Of a stretch of DNA of 63,358 bases, positions 23,500 through 57,532 are shown one piece after another. Made by a program: the position numbers and the translations under genes. The notes below the pieces were generated by a model. The model saw only the letters and a program-made list of their open reading frames with translations. It was not told the DNA's origin and made no database searches. Source of the DNA: a virus; IMG/VR virus record IMGVR_UViG_3300030109_004835, positions 1 to 63,358 of that record; one strand, 5' to 3'. How positions within the stretch are numbered: the first letter of the stretch is position 1; the number at the start of each line of letters is the position of its first letter.

Positions 23500-23688
23500 T
23501 TAATCTCTATAGCCCCCACCAGCTTTCTTATATCTAGCTGCTAGTAACTGAGCTTTACGCGCTGACCACTGTCCTTTTTTGCCGCCTTTTGAACCCCGTT
23601 TAATAGCTTCAAACATACGCTTCCGCATCGCGGGCTTGGTGTAATTCCCAGCTTCGTTTACACGGGACTTAGTTTTTTTCTTAGACAT
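23500..23688 (-). CDS. Small basic conserved protein, 62 aa
   Basis: The protein contains the block KGGKKGQWSARKAQLLAARYK followed by a Gly-rich end; related KGGKxGQWSARKAQ proteins are frequent in aquatic phages and some bacteria and remain uncharacterised. It overlaps the first base of the lysozyme stop. A nucleic-acid-binding role is suggested only by its charge. Confidence 0.75.
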   Translation of the reverse strand: MSKKKTKSRVNEAGNYTKPAMRKRMFEAIKRGSKGGKKGQWSARKAQLLAARYKKAGGGYRD

Positions 23689-24281
23689 TACTTTGCTAGT
23701 CTCCTTTCTACCGCTTCTTGAAAAGTTTTAGCTGCTTTAGGTGCTACATGGATATTAGCTTGGATACTCTCTTGTTTTTTAAGGGCCGACGATAATTTTC
23801 TCATTCGCGGGGCTACCCCTGTCTTATCTTTGTCAGCAGCACGGTATTCATCATTGTCTAAAAACTCAGATGAAGCCTTACCAAACTCCTCGTCTTTAAT
23901 ATGCTGTATTGTTTTAGGCGAACCTGACAAGCCACCTCTGTAGAATGAGGACACAACTTGTAACTGAAGCTCAGGGTCAAAAGAGAAAAACTGCCTGCCA
24001 AAAACTCTACGGACAGAAGTTAATTTCTCGCCGACATCTTTTTTAGCGAGCTGCATCGCTTGGTCTTCGGTAATCTTCTTATTAAAGAAGGGAGATTTCT
24101 CATAATCTTTGGTAGACCCATCTCCAATTTTATGGCCAATACCTATAGTCCAAAGCCCTTTGATATCTTGGTAAGGCTCTAGCTTAATATCTTCTTCAGC
24201 TTTTAACTCATCCATCAACTCATCTACGCTAAAAGCAGGAGCCATCGGTGACACGAAAGCTTTGGTCATTTCTTTTTCCAT
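23688..24281 (-). CDS. Endolysin, GH24 muramidase (T4 lysozyme-like)
   Basis: Cleaves the glycan backbone of peptidoglycan at lysis. Aligned to T4 lysozyme, the catalytic triad is complete: Glu30, Asp39 and Thr45 in the stretch from AEEDIKLEPYQD to LWTIGIGH. A second conserved block LQVVSSFYRGG follows. There is no signal peptide or SAR segment, so it needs a holin to reach the wall. ATG 24281 is taken; ATG 24269 is a possible alternative. It is one of two murein hydrolases in this cassette. Confidence 0.88.
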   Translation of the reverse strand: MEKEMTKAFVSPMAPAFSVDELMDELKAEEDIKLEPYQDIKGLWTIGIGHKIGDGSTKDYEKSPFFNKKITEDQAMQLAKKDVGEKLTSVRRVFGRQFFSFDPELQLQVVSSFYRGGLSGSPKTIQHIKDEEFGKASSEFLDNDEYRAADKDKTGVAPRMRKLSSALKKQESIQANIHVAPKAAKTFQEAVERRLAK

Positions 24282-24287
24282 AATATA

Positions 24288-24599
24288 TTATCCTTTAAAT
24301 CGTTTGCAAAATCTCTCCCATGCAGGAAAAAATAGTTCTTCTATGCAGACAACTAGGCTTTCTTCTTCAAAAGAATCTAGCCGGTCCAAGCCTGAAAAAG
24401 CAAAACAGGCATGGAGCATTTCGTGTCTGATCGTTGTTTTTATTTCTGCGGTCTTTAAATGTTTATCAATTACAATTGTTTTACGTTCGTGAGAGTAATA
24501 CCCATAGTAACCTTTCGAGCGATTGTTCTCATCACTCAGATCTTCTTTTATAATCTTAACAGGAACTCCCGCTATATGGATACTTTTGGGGAGACTCAT
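24288..24599 (-). CDS. Small zinc metallopeptidase-like protein (HEMLH), 103 aa
   Basis: The helix TTIRHEMLHACFAF carries an HExxH zinc motif (residues 59-63) and the downstream helix EEESLVVCIEELFF supplies acidic candidates for a third ligand. The N-terminal half forms short beta strands (SIHIAGVPVKII, KTIVIDK). Small proteins of this ImmA/SprT-like size are common in phage genomes with unknown substrates. It lies inside the lysis cassette, overlapping the amidase stop by 4 nt, so a role in wall degradation or protein cleavage at lysis is possible but unproven. Confidence 0.75.
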   Translation of the reverse strand: MSLPKSIHIAGVPVKIIKEDLSDENNRSKGYYGYYSHERKTIVIDKHLKTAEIKTTIRHEMLHACFAFSGLDRLDSFEEESLVVCIEELFFPAWERFCKRFKG

Positions 24600-25153
24600 C
24601 CTTCGGCATATTTCTTTATTGCACGGGCATAAACCCCTGCCAGTTTACCTCGATTGTTGTTTATCATCCTCCACTCGTCGGCGTTACTCCCAAAAAATGG
24701 TTCGGCTATAACTGCTGGTGGACTTACTTTACGTAAAAAATAAGAACCCCTTTGTTTGGCAACTCTGGGTTTTGCCCCTCGTGAAGCCAAATCAGGATAA
24801 GATTCGTTCATCTCATCCCTAAGAAAGTAAGCTAATTTGCTGCCCAGCTTACTTGAGTGCCAGTACAACCACTCATGGCCAGTAGCTCTAGGCCCCGCTG
24901 AATTAAAATGAAATTCTATGACAGCGTCTACCTCATCTTCCTTTAGCTTTTTAGCTAAATAGTTAATCCCAGCAGTGTAACTTTTAACGGGGTATTGGTC
25001 GTAAATTACAAAGTCTACTTCACCCTTAAGGGGGCTGGCGACTCGACGAACCAAATCACGGTTAAAATCCCACTCCGACAAAACATATTCCCCCGCGCTG
25101 TAAGCGCCTTGGTCTCCTAAACGGGAATGCCCTACTGCCAACCCAATTTTCAT
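24596..25153 (-). CDS. N-acetylmuramoyl-L-alanine amidase (Amidase_3)
   Basis: A zinc enzyme that cuts the bond between muramic acid and the stem peptide. In 185 residues it shows AVGHSRLGDQG (ligand His9), a Glu in the LSEWDFN helix (about 27), FHFNSAG (ligand His82) and AEPFFGSN (catalytic Glu151), which is a complete Amidase_3 domain without a separate wall-binding domain. It begins with ATGA overlap to the upstream 55-aa holin-like gene. Having both an amidase and a GH24 muramidase is unusual for a small phage; one may be virion-associated or serve a different wall type. Confidence 0.9.
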   Translation of the reverse strand: MKIGLAVGHSRLGDQGAYSAGEYVLSEWDFNRDLVRRVASPLKGEVDFVIYDQYPVKSYTAGINYLAKKLKEDEVDAVIEFHFNSAGPRATGHEWLYWHSSKLGSKLAYFLRDEMNESYPDLASRGAKPRVAKQRGSYFLRKVSPPAVIAEPFFGSNADEWRMINNNRGKLAGVYARAIKKYAEG

Positions 25154-25317
25154 TTATTAATTAAACGGTAAAGAGATGCTATTCCTACCGCGATGCCAAC
25201 AACTAGCGAGCCTACCCTCAGCCAATACTCAAACTGCTCTTGCATGCTGGTTATGAGTCCGATGACCGGAGCGGCCATCCCAATCAAAGAGTCAAATATA
25301 CGTGTGTTAAAGATCAT
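25150..25317 (-). CDS. Holin-like membrane protein, 55 aa
   Basis: A short gene fitting exactly between its neighbours with ATGA overlaps on both sides. The product has a strongly hydrophobic segment VGSLVVGIAVGIASL near the C-terminus and a weaker one (LIGMAAPVIGLITS) near residue 15, separated by a polar turn (MQEQFEYW) and ended by basic RLINK. Size, membrane segments and the place directly before the amidase suggest a class II-type holin. Antiholin is the alternative because a second holin-like gene lies upstream. Confidence 0.7.
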   Translation of the reverse strand: MIFNTRIFDSLIGMAAPVIGLITSMQEQFEYWLRVGSLVVGIAVGIASLYRLINK

Positions 25318-25616
25318 TCGCCTATGGTGCTAAGGGGGTCACGGTTGTAGAGCTTGTTCATTATCTGGTCCACTTCTTGCTCTAGCTCACCGATTTTTAA
25401 GTTCTGCCTAACGTCATCCGGCAACGAACCACTCCCCCATTTTCCAGCAGGCCAATCCCTCACAAAAATCGCGTGCTTTTCAACATCCTTAGCGATCATT
25501 TGGATCTGGAAGTCGTTGTGCTGGACTTCACTTTGAAGATTACTAGCCCACCAGACGATGCCCGCCGCTTGAACCGCGAGGCCAACCCCTAGTGAGACTA
25601 GAAACTTCGTGTCCAT
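25314..25616 (-). CDS. Inner-membrane spanin-like protein, 100 aa
   Basis: One N-terminal membrane segment (LVSLGVGLAVQAAGIVWWAS) is followed by a polar, partly coiled-coil periplasmic part (LKIGELEQEVDQIMNKL). This plan fits an i-spanin, and the adjacent upstream gene encodes a lipoprotein that would be its outer-membrane partner. It overlaps the lipoprotein stop by one base and the 55-aa gene by ATGA. Compared with lambda Rz it is short, so a holin-associated membrane protein remains possible. Confidence 0.6.
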   Translation of the reverse strand: MDTKFLVSLGVGLAVQAAGIVWWASNLQSEVQHNDFQIQMIAKDVEKHAIFVRDWPAGKWGSGSLPDDVRQNLKIGELEQEVDQIMNKLYNRDPLSTIGE

Positions 25617-25894
25617 TATTTGCCGATGATAATAGCCCTGCGATAAGAATAATCGCTGTGAAATCTGTGTTCTTCACGCCCTACGAGAACACCTTCTTTG
25701 AATTGATACGACCTACCTTTAATCAATGTGATCGTCGGGGGATCGTATAACGCGCTGGCGTTCGCGCTCGATGCGTTTGTTGACGCGCTCGATGAGCAAC
25801 TTGCTATGAGCATCGCCAATGGCAGCAAGACCATCAAGCCGATCTTCCAAAGCGTCGAGATGTCGGTCTCTTCGCAATCGCACATGTTCGACAT
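25616..25894 (-). CDS. Lipoprotein, candidate outer-membrane spanin, 92 aa
   Basis: A signal anchor (LMVLLPLAMLIASC) ends in a lipobox with Cys33, followed by a Ser/Ala-rich linker and a small beta-rich domain (ITLIKGRSYQFKEG, YRRAIIIGK). The N-terminal extension before the hydrophobic core is unusually long and acidic for a signal peptide, so the true start could be later. Gene order beside a single-span membrane protein suggests an o-spanin. Its first 176 nt overlap the 72-aa gene in another frame, a layout that recalls overlapping spanin genes. Confidence 0.65.
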   Translation of the reverse strand: MSNMCDCEETDISTLWKIGLMVLLPLAMLIASCSSSASTNASSANASALYDPPTITLIKGRSYQFKEGVLVGREEHRFHSDYSYRRAIIIGK

Positions 25895-25937
25895 AAGCCT
25901 GAAGAGCAGCGGTTAGTAGTTTAAAGAAATGGCTCAC
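25719..25937 (-). CDS. Overlapping small helical protein, 72 aa
   Basis: Starts at a GTG that overlaps the stop of the 59-aa holin-like gene (GTGA) and shares 176 nt with the lipoprotein gene in a different frame of the same strand. The product is an amphipathic charged helix protein (FKLLTAALQAYVEHVRL, then Arg/Asp/Leu heptads, KLLIERVNKRIERERQR) without a membrane segment. The coupling and the ordered heptads make translation plausible even though the overlap is long. It may be a lysis regulator. Confidence 0.5.
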   Translation of the reverse strand: MSHFFKLLTAALQAYVEHVRLRRDRHLDALEDRLDGLAAIGDAHSKLLIERVNKRIERERQRVIRSPDDHID

Positions 25938-26113
25938 TTACTCTTGGCTTTGCCCACATTAAGGGCGAGCCACGATACAACGGCTGAAGCGCGGGAGACC
26001 CACTTGTTGTCACTCTCGTTAGGAGTCAATGTAGCAACAAGAGAAGCTACGGCGATTACACTTGCTGCGATTTGAAGCAGGGTGTCTACGTTTTCTGTAA
26101 TATATTCGATCAT
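25934..26113 (-). CDS. Second holin-like membrane protein, 59 aa
   Basis: The product has two potential membrane helices: LLQIAASVIAVASLVATL (about 12-29) and ASAVVSWLALNVG (about 42-54), linked by a charged turn (TPNESDNKW) and ended by a basic KAKSK tail. This is the plan of a small two-span holin. It is the first gene of the lysis cassette, starting 12 nt after the neck-protein stop, and its end is coupled to the 72-aa gene by a GTGA overlap. With the 55-aa protein it may form a holin/antiholin pair. Confidence 0.7.
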   Translation of the reverse strand: MIEYITENVDTLLQIAASVIAVASLVATLTPNESDNKWVSRASAVVSWLALNVGKAKSK

Positions 26114-27205: not shown

Positions 27206-28390
27206 CTACGGCCCGATTCTATCCATAACAGTAGGGGACCAGACCACATCACTGGTGACATTTTGTGTAATTTTATTGTCCATAGATACTGACCCTAGTT
27301 TTACATGATATGTCCCTTCAGTAGACCCATCTTGTGCTGCTTCATCCCGCCTACCAGTAGTAGAAGTCCCCATGCCAACGGATGAGATTGCAAATGGATC
27401 TGGTTCTCCTATCTGAACCCAACAATTAGTAATTTCATTGAATTTCCCTTTCTCAAGGTCTACTTCCCAAACTAAGTAAACATCTCCATATGAGCTTAAT
27501 TGATGATAAGGATCTTCATTATTTTCCCCATGAACAACTGCTTTCATGGGGTTGCCATCTTTAGTGTCTACATTAGGGACTTGCTGGGTAATATTACCTA
27601 TTTCTTCTTGGGCCGCCCCACTACAATAAGTAATCTGACCAGATACGGTGTGTGTTAAGGAACCACTTCCGTAGGTGCTGCCATCAGTGTCTTTAACCCC
27701 CGATGTTGTAGCTTCGTTAGGTTGACCGGTATTTAAACTAAGGGAGTGCTGGTGGGATGGTATAGTGTGGGTGTGGTCGTGTTCGTGGGTGTGTGACCCT
27801 ACTCCAGCGGTGTGGGTGTGGTCATGTTCGTGGGTGTGTGACATCGCCACATCATGGCCATGAGCTATATCATGTGTGTGATCTCCATACCCACTACCAC
27901 TTTGGACACCGGATGTTGTAGTAGTTTGAGACGACGTAGAACCATAACCAGAAACCGCCGCAACGTCGGTGCCGGTAGTCGCGTCATCTGGCTGGCTTGT
28001 AGTCACCGTGCCAGAACCCCCGTTTACATTTCCAGTAGTTGCGTCATCAATAGATGTCGTAACCGTATCAGATCCACTTCCAGTTGGCCCCGATCCAGTA
28101 GACCCCGAAATAGAGTGAGTGTGGTCGTGTTCGTGGGCGTGGTCGGCATGGTCCGCTACGGCAATCGCGCTGGTTTCAAACCGTAAGGTGATAACATCTA
28201 CGCGCCAATGCAGTTCACCATACGCAACCTTCGCGCCCCCGTCCCCGTGCATCAAAGCAAATGCGTGAGGACGATGAAGCAGTTCCCCCGCTGCCCTTTC
28301 GTAACTAGTTGATGATCCTTCAGCCGACCCTATCTGAGATCCTTCTGGAAACTCTGGATCAGGGATAGGGCCTAACTCAATAGGGGTCAT
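27206..28390 (-). CDS. Histidine-rich tail fibre / collar-like protein, 394 aa
   Basis: Two clusters of HxH motifs (residues about 81-93 and 171-214, of the form HEHDHTH) are embedded in a Gly/Ser/Thr-rich region. HxH motifs of this kind in phage fibre tips coordinate iron or zinc ions along the axis of a trimer. The N-terminal 75 residues (WRVDVITLRFE) and the C-terminal 120 (YLVWEVDLEKGKFNEITNCWV) are beta-rich. Placement after the 451-aa virion protein supports a tail-tip or receptor-contact role. The repeat DNA shows three near-identical GTG-rich blocks (about 27766-27845 and 28114-28150). Confidence 0.65.
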   Translation of the reverse strand: MTPIELGPIPDPEFPEGSQIGSAEGSSTSYERAAGELLHRPHAFALMHGDGGAKVAYGELHWRVDVITLRFETSAIAVADHADHAHEHDHTHSISGSTGSGPTGSGSDTVTTSIDDATTGNVNGGSGTVTTSQPDDATTGTDVAAVSGYGSTSSQTTTTSGVQSGSGYGDHTHDIAHGHDVAMSHTHEHDHTHTAGVGSHTHEHDHTHTIPSHQHSLSLNTGQPNEATTSGVKDTDGSTYGSGSLTHTVSGQITYCSGAAQEEIGNITQQVPNVDTKDGNPMKAVVHGENNEDPYHQLSSYGDVYLVWEVDLEKGKFNEITNCWVQIGEPDPFAISSVGMGTSTTGRRDEAAQDGSTEGTYHVKLGSVSMDNKITQNVTSDVVWSPTVMDRIGP

Positions 28391-35889: not shown

Positions 35890-36207
35890 TTACGGGGTGT
35901 TTTCCTGAGAGGTCCAATCGGCACCAGCAAGCTCTGCAAGAATCTCTGCATGGGTGTAGGTGTCCATTCCCTCAAACACTTCTGGTGTCTCTCCGTCCCA
36001 CTTCAAGATGGTCTTGGTTCCGTCTACCGATAGGCGGAGGGTAGCCTTAGAGGATTCAATGGCGGCATCGATAAACGTATTGCCGACCACCACTTGCTCC
36101 GTAGTCTCTTCTCCTTCGTCGTCGACGACTACCTGCTCTTCGCTGATGTCTCCAGCGTTGATATCTTCTAGGGTCATTACAACCCACTTTCTATTTTCGT
36201 AACTCAT
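35890..36207 (-). CDS. Hypothetical virion-associated protein, 105 aa
   Basis: No recognised family. Acidic, with an Asp/Glu/Val-rich insertion (SEEQVVVDDEGEETTEQVVV) and a C-terminal MDTYTHAEILAELAGADW segment that is frequent in small proteins next to phage fibres. It lies between the LamG adhesin and the 122-aa protein with 2- and 8-nt gaps, so it is a late-operon gene. It may be a fibre assembly chaperone or minor component. Confidence 0.6.
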   Translation of the reverse strand: MSYENRKWVVMTLEDINAGDISEEQVVVDDEGEETTEQVVVGNTFIDAAIESSKATLRLSVDGTKTILKWDGETPEVFEGMDTYTHAEILAELAGADWTSQENTP

Positions 36208-44062: not shown

Positions 44063-44272
44063 ATGAAAACTAAACTACTAGGGATTGTAGCAATTGTCCC
44101 ATTTTGTCTGGCCTCCTGCTCTACAGCAGATCTGGGTGGGCAAGTGCCCCTCCCTTTTACATCCCCATCAACGTCAGCAAAGCTGGACCTCGAACTCCGG
44201 CCTATGCCCCCCAAGTTCTGTATTGGGCTAGACTTGATTCCTACAGAAGAAGAGCCTTCAACTGAAAAGTAA
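44063..44272 (+). CDS. Small proline-rich lipoprotein on the opposite strand, 69 aa
   Basis: From ATG 44063 the product begins MKTKLLGIVAIVPFCLASCS, a classic lipoprotein signal with the lipobox LASC (Cys19). The mature part of about 50 residues is rich in proline and acidic at the end. It is transcribed against all surrounding capsid genes and followed by a 20-aa gene and a terminator, so it is an independent cassette. Its form recalls an outer-membrane spanin (Rz1) or a superinfection-exclusion lipoprotein expressed in a cell carrying the phage. A longer start at 43991 lacks signal-peptide logic. Confidence 0.7.
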   Translation: MKTKLLGIVAIVPFCLASCSTADLGGQVPLPFTSPSTSAKLDLELRPMPPKFCIGLDLIPTEEEPSTEK

Positions 44273-54947: not shown

Positions 54948-56030
54948 ATGTCACATCACATAGAAATCACATCAGACGATATGCCCGCAGTACTGGACCG
55001 CAACCACAAGGCAGGGAATAAAAAGGCCCCCGTCTTTCAGTCCTTCTACGGCTTGGGTAAATCAATGCAAGCCGCGTTGTGGGCCGCTCGAAAGGAAGCT
55101 CATTACATCGACTATCGTGGAGCCTATAAAACGTTTAACGACGTTCGTGGGTTCGGGATCCCCAATCATGAGGAGCAGCGTATGAAGTTCTACGCTGACG
55201 AAGACCTCGACTTCAAAGATGGCGCAATGAATGTCCTCCATCTGGAGGAGATTGGTTTGGTCAGTCCCCAGACTCAGAAGGTTCTCATGCAGATGCTTCT
55301 GGAGAAGCGGGTGGGTAAGTTCTTCTTCCCTGAAGATACCTTCGTCATGGGGTCAACCAACATGCTGGCCCACAAGACAGGGGTTGAGCGTTGGCTGGCG
55401 GCATTGGCTGACAGGGTAGCGTTCTATCGTGTACGTCCTGACTTTGACTCCTATCAGAACTACCTGATGAATCATGGTAAGACGCCATACCTCTTGGCAT
55501 TCCTGAACTCCAACCCTTCTGCTCCGTATGATTTCAAGATCAAGGAGTGGGACGGTGAGTCTAACTTACCTACCTTCAGGTCATTCTCCCGACTGGACGA
55601 ACTGACTGACAGTTATGATGACATATCAGAAGCCGTGGCCGATCCTCTGTTCCGTGCTCATGCTACGTCTTGTGTCGGTCCTAAGTATGGAGAAATGTAC
55701 ACATCGTTCCTCAAGCTCACCAGCAGAGTGGGTGATGTGAACAAGATGATCGAGGATGCTGATCGTTGCAGTATCCCGCATGAGCCAGACATCAAGTGGC
55801 TTGTTGCATGTCGATCCATTGCATTGTCAAACAAGGATAACATCGACAAGGTTCTGGTCTTGGCGCATCGCCTGACAGATCCCAGCATGAACAATCCTAG
55901 TAATCTTGACATGATGGAGTCCTTCGTTGGCAACTCCATTGGACGAATCAAGAAAGACTTGCTAAAGACCCAAGCCCTCGTAAAGTGGCGGGTCAAGCAT
56001 GCCGACGAACTCTCAGGAAAGATCAGCTAA
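54948..56030 (+). CDS. MoxR-like AAA+ ATPase, 360 aa
   Basis: An AAA+ protein with a shortened P-loop FYGLGKS (residues 33-39) in place of the usual GPPGxGKS, a Walker B with Glu-Glu (VLHLEEI, about 97-101) and a sensor-1 segment (VMGSTNML). The lid region has an arginine-rich end. MoxR-type ATPases load or remodel partner complexes together with a vWA protein. The unusual P-loop and Glu for Asp in Walker B could slow hydrolysis. The upstream leader AAAACAAAACAAAAGAT has no Shine-Dalgarno. It contains an AAACGTTT motif at 55129. Confidence 0.75.
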   Translation: MSHHIEITSDDMPAVLDRNHKAGNKKAPVFQSFYGLGKSMQAALWAARKEAHYIDYRGAYKTFNDVRGFGIPNHEEQRMKFYADEDLDFKDGAMNVLHLEEIGLVSPQTQKVLMQMLLEKRVGKFFFPEDTFVMGSTNMLAHKTGVERWLAALADRVAFYRVRPDFDSYQNYLMNHGKTPYLLAFLNSNPSAPYDFKIKEWDGESNLPTFRSFSRLDELTDSYDDISEAVADPLFRAHATSCVGPKYGEMYTSFLKLTSRVGDVNKMIEDADRCSIPHEPDIKWLVACRSIALSNKDNIDKVLVLAHRLTDPSMNNPSNLDMMESFVGNSIGRIKKDLLKTQALVKWRVKHADELSGKIS

Positions 56031-56067
56031 TCTGATTCACTGTATCCTGAATCACGCATCCTGCCCC

Positions 56068-56358
56068 ATGATTATGTGGTCAGCTACCGACCCACTTGTA
56101 GCCGCATTCTATTTCTGGCTACGAGATGTAGGCAGCACCCACATTGTCGGGGCTGGGAGCGGGAACGTTAAACTATCTAAGGAAGCGGATGAGTTACTCC
56201 GCGACCATAGAGACACGGTAAAACGTTTCACTGAAATACACAGAAAAGAAAATAAACATGAAAGCAAAAGACAAGATCGCGAAAGCGAAGAACATCATCG
56301 CGAATCATCACGACATTCTCATGCCAGCACTAGCTGCGCTAGAGGATATTATTGTTGA
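56068..56358 (+). CDS. Overlapping hypothetical protein, 96 aa
   Basis: The frame from ATG 56068 covers the 227-nt gap between the ATPase and the vWA gene and overlaps the vWA start by 101 nt. The first 60 residues (DPLVAAFYFWLRDVGSTHIV, ADELLRDHRDTVKRFTEI) look like a folded domain; the rest is a charged tail in the overlap. The gene would explain the gap, but the long overlap makes the end uncertain. It contains an AAACGTTT motif at 56221. Confidence 0.45.
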   Translation: MIMWSATDPLVAAFYFWLRDVGSTHIVGAGSGNVKLSKEADELLRDHRDTVKRFTEIHRKENKHESKRQDRESEEHHRESSRHSHASTSCARGYYC

Positions 56359-57532
56359 TGATCCGAGTCTCACAGCATGTACAAATGGGGAACATATTAG
56401 ATATGGTGCCCAGTTTGTGGACACGCTGAATATCCAACAGACAGTTGGACTAATCGTCCATGAGGTATTGCATCCTCTACTGGATCACCTCACAAGATTG
56501 GCTACTCAGTTTCAGACTGACGCCCATCTCACCAACGTCGGTGCGGACTACGAGATCAATAACTTCGTAACCATATACAACGAGGAGGCTACCTTCCCCA
56601 TTGTATTACCACCCGAAGCTCATGTTGATGTCGAGAAGTATGGCACTCTGGCAGCAGAGGTTATCATCAGGAAACTCTTCGAGGATACCCCGAAACCGCC
56701 ACCGCCACCGCCGACTAACCCCAATCCCGATGGGGAGTGTGACAACCCCACTGATGGGGAGGGTGATCAGGACTCGCCTCAAGAAGGGGACAAGGAAGGC
56801 AAAGGTTCCGGCAACGGGCAACCGCAACGTCAGCCCTACTCCTCTGGTGAATTTGAACCTGCTAAAAGTTCTGCCAAGGCGAAGGAGCTATCCGACAAGT
56901 GGAAGGAGATCTTGACCAGCACTATCCAGACTGCGAAGTTACGTGGTAAGGGTGGGGGTAAGTTCATCGAGAAGCTTGGAGAACTACTAGAGCCTCCCCT
57001 TGATCTGGATGCCCTGCTGGATAAGTACACCACAGAGTTCTGTTTGTCAGATGAATCAATCCGTGCAGACAAACGCTACTTAGCCTATCACGATATCTGT
57101 ATCACAGGTATGGAAGACGAGCAGCATGGCACGTTGGTATTCGTCAAGGATACTAGCGGTAGTATAAACAAAGATATCCTAGAGTCTGTTGTCAGCATTG
57201 TGCAGGGAGCTTCCACCAAGCTCCGACCACGACGCCTTATCGTGATGGATGTAGACGCCGAGGTGCAACACGTTGAAGAGTTCGGGCCTCACGATGAGAT
57301 CCCCGCAGAAGCTAAAGGCAGAGGAGGGACAGACTTCCGACCTGCGTTTGACTTCATCGAAAACAATCTTGAGGAAGCGCGAGTCGTTATCTACTTCACT
57401 GATGGATACGGCGTGTTCCCTGAAGAAGAACCAAGTATCCCGACCTTGTGGGTGACATACGGTCTGGAAGATGATGGCTTCCCTTTTGGTCAGGTAGTCA
57501 ACATGAATGAACTAATTGACCAAGCAGTATAA
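56258..57532 (+). CDS. vWA-like protein with N-terminal metallopeptidase domain, 424 aa
   Basis: The N-terminal domain has the motif GLIVHEVLHPLLDH (HExxH, residues 68-72), which fits the putative metallopeptidase of DUF2201-type proteins. A Pro/Gly-rich acidic linker (about 145-190) follows. The C-terminal vWA domain has a full MIDAS: DTSGS (Asp298, Ser300, Ser302), Thr358 in GRGGTDF and Asp382 in FTDGYG. Together with the upstream AAA+ protein it makes the MoxR-vWA pair; the peptidase domain may be the effector or a structural relic. It is the most informative enzyme of the accessory block. Confidence 0.85.
   Translation: MKAKDKIAKAKNIIANHHDILMPALAALEDIIVDDPSLTACTNGEHIRYGAQFVDTLNIQQTVGLIVHEVLHPLLDHLTRLATQFQTDAHLTNVGADYEINNFVTIYNEEATFPIVLPPEAHVDVEKYGTLAAEVIIRKLFEDTPKPPPPPPTNPNPDGECDNPTDGEGDQDSPQEGDKEGKGSGNGQPQRQPYSSGEFEPAKSSAKAKELSDKWKEILTSTIQTAKLRGKGGGKFIEKLGELLEPPLDLDALLDKYTTEFCLSDESIRADKRYLAYHDICITGMEDEQHGTLVFVKDTSGSINKDILESVVSIVQGASTKLRPRRLIVMDVDAEVQHVEEFGPHDEIPAEAKGRGGTDFRPAFDFIENNLEEARVVIYFTDGYGVFPEEEPSIPTLWVTYGLEDDGFPFGQVVNMNELIDQAV

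Follow-up and report, generated by a model that had tools for sequence, protein, structure and literature searches.

Two-component spanins are known from phages lambda (Rz/Rz1), T7 (18.5/18.7) and P2 (LysB/LysC), and phage lipoproteins with roles in exclusion are known as well. In Kongari 2018 (PMC6139136) an i-spanin is required to have an N-terminal transmembrane domain (TMD), with other topologies not being considered, an o-spanin is an outer-membrane lipoprotein with a lipobox, and the genes of a pair are embedded, overlapped or adjacent; a periplasmic cysteine for an intermolecular disulfide is usual, with approximately 4% lacking one. The same text counts 91 of 677 phages of Gram-negative hosts (approximately 13%) without a recognizable spanin, and 31 genomes whose lipoprotein has no i-spanin linked to it. 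A 2026 paper (PMC12819732) leaves open whether spanin-less phages use other outer-membrane disruptors; it also describes a short amphipathic-helix disruptin for phage phiKT and cites Holt 2022, in whose title the disruptin is called cationic. Judged by sequence comparison, which gives good support, the locus analyzed here is a real and conserved predicted lysis cassette with a non-standard pair of genes in the spanin slot. An initial sequence-only reading of this DNA had suggested that the division of roles is not the textbook one, and this is supported.

The cassette lies on the minus strand of a 63,358-bp IMG/VR virus record, described as a marine phage; the whole record was analyzed and is referred to here as the window. 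None of 50,697 named phage records (INPHARED) matches its portal protein at E 1e-5. The gene order is a 341-aa protein, h59, c72, lip92, ss100, h55, an Amidase_3 protein, an HExxH protein, a Phage_lysozyme protein and a 62-aa protein, and the ORFs named in the sequence-only reading, which had proposed a crowded lysis cassette with overlapping genes, all exist on this strand. The two murein hydrolases and the HExxH protein that it had placed just beyond the stretch it described are also present: an N-acetylmuramoyl-L-alanine amidase as the endolysin (24596..25153; Amidase_3, PF01520, E 4.7e-15; phrog_435 endolysin, 2e-33), a metalloprotease-like protein with the motif HEMLH (hex103, 24288..24599; phrog_1233, a family without a functional name, E 1.1e-14), whose Pfam matches to Peptidase_M78 and SprT-like fall below the cut-off, and a Phage_lysozyme domain protein (lys197, 23688..24281; PF00959, E 4.7e-8; phrog_7 endolysin, E 1.1e-13). 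The HExxH protein between the two murein hydrolases gave tblastn hits in 119 of 203 loci. The sequence-only reading had called nearly every junction an ATGA/GTGA-type overlap; such 4-nt overlaps are found at four of the eight junctions from h59 to the 62-aa gene, namely h59/c72 (where the GTG start of c72 overlaps the h59 stop as GTGA), ss100/h55, h55/amidase and amidase/hex103, and the other four consist of two 1-nt overlaps, the 176 nt shared by c72 and lip92, and one 6-nt gap. With a short motif list, Shine-Dalgarno-like stretches were found before lys197 and the 62-aa gene and none before h59 through hex103. Elsewhere in the window there is a 394-aa protein rich in repeated His-Asp-His-Thr stretches (27206-28390, minus strand), and at 54948-57532 on the plus strand there are two nearby ORFs that we presume to resemble a MoxR-type ATPase and a VWA/metalloprotease-like protein.

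The spanin slot is occupied by c72 (25719..25937), a 72-aa protein with a GTG start, and lip92 (25616..25894), a small predicted lipoprotein that is read in the +1 frame relative to c72 across 176 nt (25719..25894). Four results indicate that both frames are constrained and that the overlap is genuine: (i) when lip92 was recoded at random with synonymous codons, the c72 frame stayed free of stops in 237 of 20000 trials, so that the overlap exceeds chance; (ii) a tblastn search over 203 loci besides the window detected lip92 in 106 and c72 in all but four of these, lip92 being cut at the locus start in those four, and the 102 c72 loci represent 65 distinct protein pairs with the overlap in every one; (iii) in a profile scan of viral contigs, all 80 lip92 relatives considered (the best 80 of 326 confirmed) have a +1-overlapping relative of c72; and (iv) differences at lip codon positions 1, 2 and 3 amount to 12, 39 and 48% of 1183 inside the overlap (573 at the third) and to 10, 8 and 82% of 1650 outside it (1353 at the third), and the difference rate halves from 0.103 outside to 0.046 inside, these counts being descriptive only because the 160 close sequence pairs behind them share sequences. 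The lip second positions, where 39% of the differences inside the overlap fall, are the third positions of c72. A lipoprotein gene overlapping a 72-aa gene in another frame had been noted in the sequence-only reading, which held that relatives lacking the overlapping frame would speak against it; no such relative is among the 80, and the claim therefore withstands that challenge.

At the sequence level lip92 is predicted to be an outer-membrane lipoprotein of the o-spanin kind. It has a hydrophobic region and the lipobox LIASC, with the SC (Cys33) invariant in 42 of 42 aligned relatives, its n-region is acidic in the window, and its mature domain is conserved and compact. It matched no spanin PHROG and nothing in INPHARED, and its structure model (pLDDT 67.9) is too weak for a fold search. 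The rule that we used to call lipoproteins is a home-made consensus, a strict version of which missed lip92, so the rule can miss others. A caveat to the assignment of lip92 as the o-spanin is a second lipoprotein ORF at 44063-44272 on the plus strand, the strand opposite to the structural genes, which could be an alternative o-spanin; it has a LASC lipobox and relatives in 8 of 15 related records, and the ORF list gives no transmembrane partner beside it.

It is c72 that departs from the usual picture. Whereas i-spanins are inner-membrane proteins of type II topology anchored by an N-terminal TMD, c72 has no transmembrane-like window by KD hydropathy, which we used throughout in place of a trained predictor. 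The same is true of its family, in which none of 108 distinct sequences reaches a KD19 of 1.6 (maximum 1.18 from the profile start and 1.43 from the most upstream start); in contrast, 127 of 129 h59 family sequences reach the transmembrane threshold. The AlphaFold2 model of c72 (mean pLDDT 85.9) has helices at 3-40 and 43-64, giving a helical hairpin for which neither PDB nor BFVD yielded a fold match reaching E 0.001; an INPHARED search with c72 found one phage at E 0.2. Profile searches against solved structures gave no convincing match. The N-terminus is amphipathic (moment 0.49) and the net charge is +1, so that c72 is amphipathic without being the short cationic helix of a disruptin. c72 also lacks cysteine altogether, and Cys33 is the sole cysteine of mature lip92, so that neither offers the usual residue for an intermolecular disulfide. 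Thus, c72 fails the i-spanin definition yet fills the i-spanin slot. Having neither a transmembrane segment nor an export signal, it shows no route to lip92 that is visible from the sequence, which counts against a spanin role.

The gene before this pair, h59 (25934..26113), encodes a 59-aa protein that matches phrog_9685 over residues 1-58 (E 2.9e-12), a family to which PHROGs gives no functional name and which, from the survey that follows, marks the module. The protein had been read as having two membrane segments; it has one above the usual threshold (17-residue KD 2.13, with 1.01 for the best second-half window) and a C-terminal amphipathic stretch, LALNVGKAK. A profile scan of viral contigs confirmed at least 433 relatives, the best 80 of which were used; one duplicate and three with less than 700 nt downstream were set aside, leaving 76 usable loci. 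In 61 of the 76 the slot after h59 holds a lipoprotein gene that overlaps the gene of a short protein in +1, with 27 loci carrying lip92 relatives (with c72 in the +1 arrangement in 27 of 27) and 34 carrying another overlapped pair (+1 in 34 of 34), while four have a lipoprotein with no overlapping partner called and 11 have no lipoprotein within 450 nt, counts that are not independent because many of the loci are related. Among the four, L324 and L352 have a transmembrane protein followed by a lipoprotein, and in L351 and L356 the first start of the partner ORF sits further upstream. The same rule, which recovers 26 of the 27 lip92-type loci, found a lipoprotein ORF within 450 nt at none of 506 control positions. 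No homology of the larger set of other overlapped pairs to c72 and lip92 was detected by profile comparison (probabilities 2.3 and 2.8%). Across a genome collection, 27 h59 loci divided into 4 of lip92 type, 11 with an overlapped pair (one, L395, doubtful and in the +2 frame), 11 with none (although L394 has a c72/lip pair further downstream) and 1 that was too short. The connection of phrog_9685 with spanin-type lipoproteins comes from this survey.

No h59 hit was obtained in 17 of the best 80 of 326 lip relatives, 10 of which have at least 500 nt upstream, and h59 is, on this sequence evidence, not obligatory for the c72/lip92 module. The family also has members outside the lysis module: in L175, L362, L363 and L366, relatives found with the h59 profile are followed by an acidic ORF of approximately 220 aa and no lipoprotein.

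What takes the place of c72 and lip92 in relatives is informative as to function. In L324 and its close relative L352 the gene order after the h59 relative is a transmembrane protein, whose long domain looks helical, then a lipoprotein and then a lysozyme; in L324 the transmembrane protein matches phrog_739 (2.3e-11) and the lipoprotein phrog_812 (1.5e-13), both named Rz-like spanin. The overlapped partner in L389 has a strong transmembrane segment (KD 2.73). Three loci (L327, L330 and L353) have h59 before (55-64%) and Amidase_3 after (39-41%) a different pair, for which homology to c72/lip92 was not detected. The idea that the neighbors in these three are the same in place as in the window was rejected, since the flanking genes in common come down to h59 and the amidase; another shared gene (35890-36207) is separated from h59 by 9.8 kb in the window but by 2.5 kb in the three, and in L353 h59 is followed by an additional ORF. 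We therefore regard these as related phages and not as the same locus throughout. Other overlapped lipoprotein pairs thus occupy this slot in related and unrelated phages alike. Four named phages (CGphi29, S45C18, LUZ100 and phiARM81mr) have an h59 relative, a short protein and a +1 lipoprotein; the h59 relatives of CGphi29, LUZ100 and phiARM81mr, like that of L324, are members of phrog_9685, and the lipoproteins match Rz-like spanin PHROGs in CGphi29 (4e-11), LUZ100 (1.6e-12) and phiARM81mr (4.3e-5) and, weakly, in S45C18 (0.01). A scan with the lipoprotein rule found no other lipoprotein ORF in LUZ100 or S45C18 and one further, doubtful ORF in CGphi29, where the slot lipoprotein is the only credible one; a fifth named phage with an h59 hit, Azospirillum phage Cd, has no credible lipoprotein.

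LUZ100 deserves separate mention. Its authors state (PMC10134795) that they found no apparent equivalents of spanins to annotate. In the LUZ100 record the set consists of gp37, a short slot ORF of 78 aa that is unannotated, and the lipoprotein gp38, and a slot pair in which the partner lacks a transmembrane segment may explain this phage, thought to be spanin-less. The module does not settle the whole spanin-less question: seven other listed spanin-less phages (phiHAP-1, VP882, BPP-1, LUZ24, RcapMu, VP93 and BA3) have no h59 relative above the inclusion threshold, LUZ24, RcapMu, VP93 and BA3 having been scanned up to their final 283 to 931 bases. A weak hit in LUZ24 (E 0.024) was rejected after reading through, and the lipoprotein-like ORFs in the seven, the clearest of which is bbp28 of BPP-1, have no h59 relative beside them.

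We think it fairly probable that the cassette is a holin-endolysin lysis operon that leaves the outer-membrane step to a spanin-like module of c72 and lip92, usually preceded by h59. Our reasoning for making c72 and lip92 most likely a spanin-like, outer-membrane-disrupting pair is that the slot holds spanin-type and other overlapped pairs and that pairs are swapped in relatives. In this working model h55, as the holin, would make holes in the inner membrane and the Amidase_3 and lysozyme proteins would cut the wall; c72, probably bound to the inner membrane by its amphipathic N-terminal helix, would meet lip92 once the inner membrane is holed, and lip92, in the outer membrane, would act with c72 to break it. 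The h59 protein may be an accessory small membrane protein of the module, as an anchor, a regulator or a co-holin. The localizations, complex formation and lysis function of the cassette proteins are all things that we infer.

Two holin-like proteins had been proposed in the cassette, and this holds for h55 better than for h59. h55 (25150..25317) is a 55-aa protein directly before the endolysin, with two transmembrane segments, as had been read (KD17 1.81 and 1.97), and a 4-nt overlap with the amidase start; its hydropathy profile and position make it the likelier candidate holin, and it matches no named holin family in PHROGs, Pfam or NCBIfam. One could instead take h59 for the holin and h55 for an antiholin or partner, with h59-c72-lip92 being a holin beside a degenerate spanin pair, given that the ORF lists of L324 and L352 show no small membrane protein other than h59 immediately ahead of the transmembrane protein, lipoprotein and lysozyme. 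We consider this possible but doubtful. A holin besides the h59 relative, which has one transmembrane segment, is present in LUZ100 (gp50), phiARM81mr (p42) and CGphi29 (a phrog_20 match), and h59 therefore need not be the holin; moreover, in a distant clade the h55 profile drew a blank at 59 of 83 loci, and at the 32 of these with room a separate protein of 59-61 aa, with one or two transmembrane-like segments, is listed before h59. A different candidate for the i-spanin is ss100 (25314..25616; phrog_8909, a family without a functional name, E 2.3e-5), which was correctly read as a single-span protein. Its one N-terminal transmembrane segment (KD17 2.08) and C-terminal domain fit the published i-spanin rule, it starts at the lip92 stop, and it is under strong purifying selection. 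Among the 16 loci compared, 13 combine 91-99% amino acid identity with a divergence of 32-49% at third codon positions, and three diverge there by 16-25%; recent transfer, which the identity suggested, was rejected on account of this divergence. It is nevertheless unlikely that the real i-spanin is ss100, paired with lip92 as o-spanin in a separated two-component spanin, with c72 merely overlapping and serving another role, as ss100 behaves as an optional insert rather than a core lysis gene. Where lip92, h55 and amidase were all detected (67 distinct cassettes), ss100 occurs in 19, against 39 with no insert among these genes, 6 with another ORF between lip92 and h55 and 3 that differ between h55 and amidase; a search of 25 records located it in 9, with 3 of the copies lying outside the cassette and 52-64% identical, whereas c72 is kept in every one of the best 80 lip loci. 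An INPHARED search with ss100 gave no match. The lip92-h55 interval has the look of an insertion hot spot, with other ORFs at L061:5556-5843, L072:990-1409 and L081:3881-4378, two of which share an LKGRKH motif also seen in an ORF of S45C18 (L205:3070-3342).

The remaining alternatives assign c72 and lip92 to separate tasks. With no transmembrane segment, a helical model and an amphipathic N-terminus, c72 might be a disruptin-like peptide, of which phiKT offers an example, that breaks the outer membrane alone after holin triggering, lip92 being a helper or unrelated. We hold this to be improbable; c72 is not strongly cationic, and such a role leaves unexplained both the conserved overlap with a lipoprotein gene and the occupation of the slot in L324 by a transmembrane protein and a spanin-type lipoprotein. 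It is quite improbable, in our estimation, that lip92 is a superinfection-exclusion lipoprotein and that c72 and h59 are small, unrelated genes that have inserted close to the lysis operon. We count in its favor that exclusion roles of phage lipoproteins are known and that the mature domain of lip92, compact and strongly conserved, is unlike the proline-rich Rz1; set against this, the slot is shared with lipoproteins that PHROGs names as spanins, and LUZ100 and S45C18 would be left with no other lipoprotein ORF in our scan for the outer-membrane step.

Taking the spanin-like reading of c72 and lip92 further, we tentatively raise the prospect, itself rather doubtful, of a new class of spanin-like disrupters marked by phrog_9685 and present in unrelated phages, in which the one-TM h59 and the TM-less c72 hairpin replace or split the i-spanin and are joined by a +1 lipoprotein; such a class would account for some phages called spanin-less, LUZ100 included. 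If TM-less partners of overlapped lipoproteins do act as spanins, then spanin searches that demand an N-terminal TMD in the inner-membrane partner are too restrictive, and the small phrog_9685 family would serve as a marker with which to locate such spanins. A search of titles and abstract openings, with subscription journals mostly outside its reach, found no published description of a module of the h59/c72/lip92 type. As in the two-component spanins, the lipoprotein gene in c72/lip92 overlaps the upstream gene in +1 beside an endolysin, and three of the four slot lipoproteins in named phages match Rz-like spanin PHROGs below 1e-4. Unlike in those spanins, the upstream partner is short, has no N-terminal transmembrane segment throughout its family and is modeled as a helical hairpin, and the pair has no cysteine besides the lipidated one. 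With the disruptin of phiKT, as presented in PMC12819732, c72 shares a short amphipathic helical build and a proposed part in disrupting the outer membrane, and it is set apart from disruptins by its nearly neutral charge and by its overlap with a lipoprotein gene.
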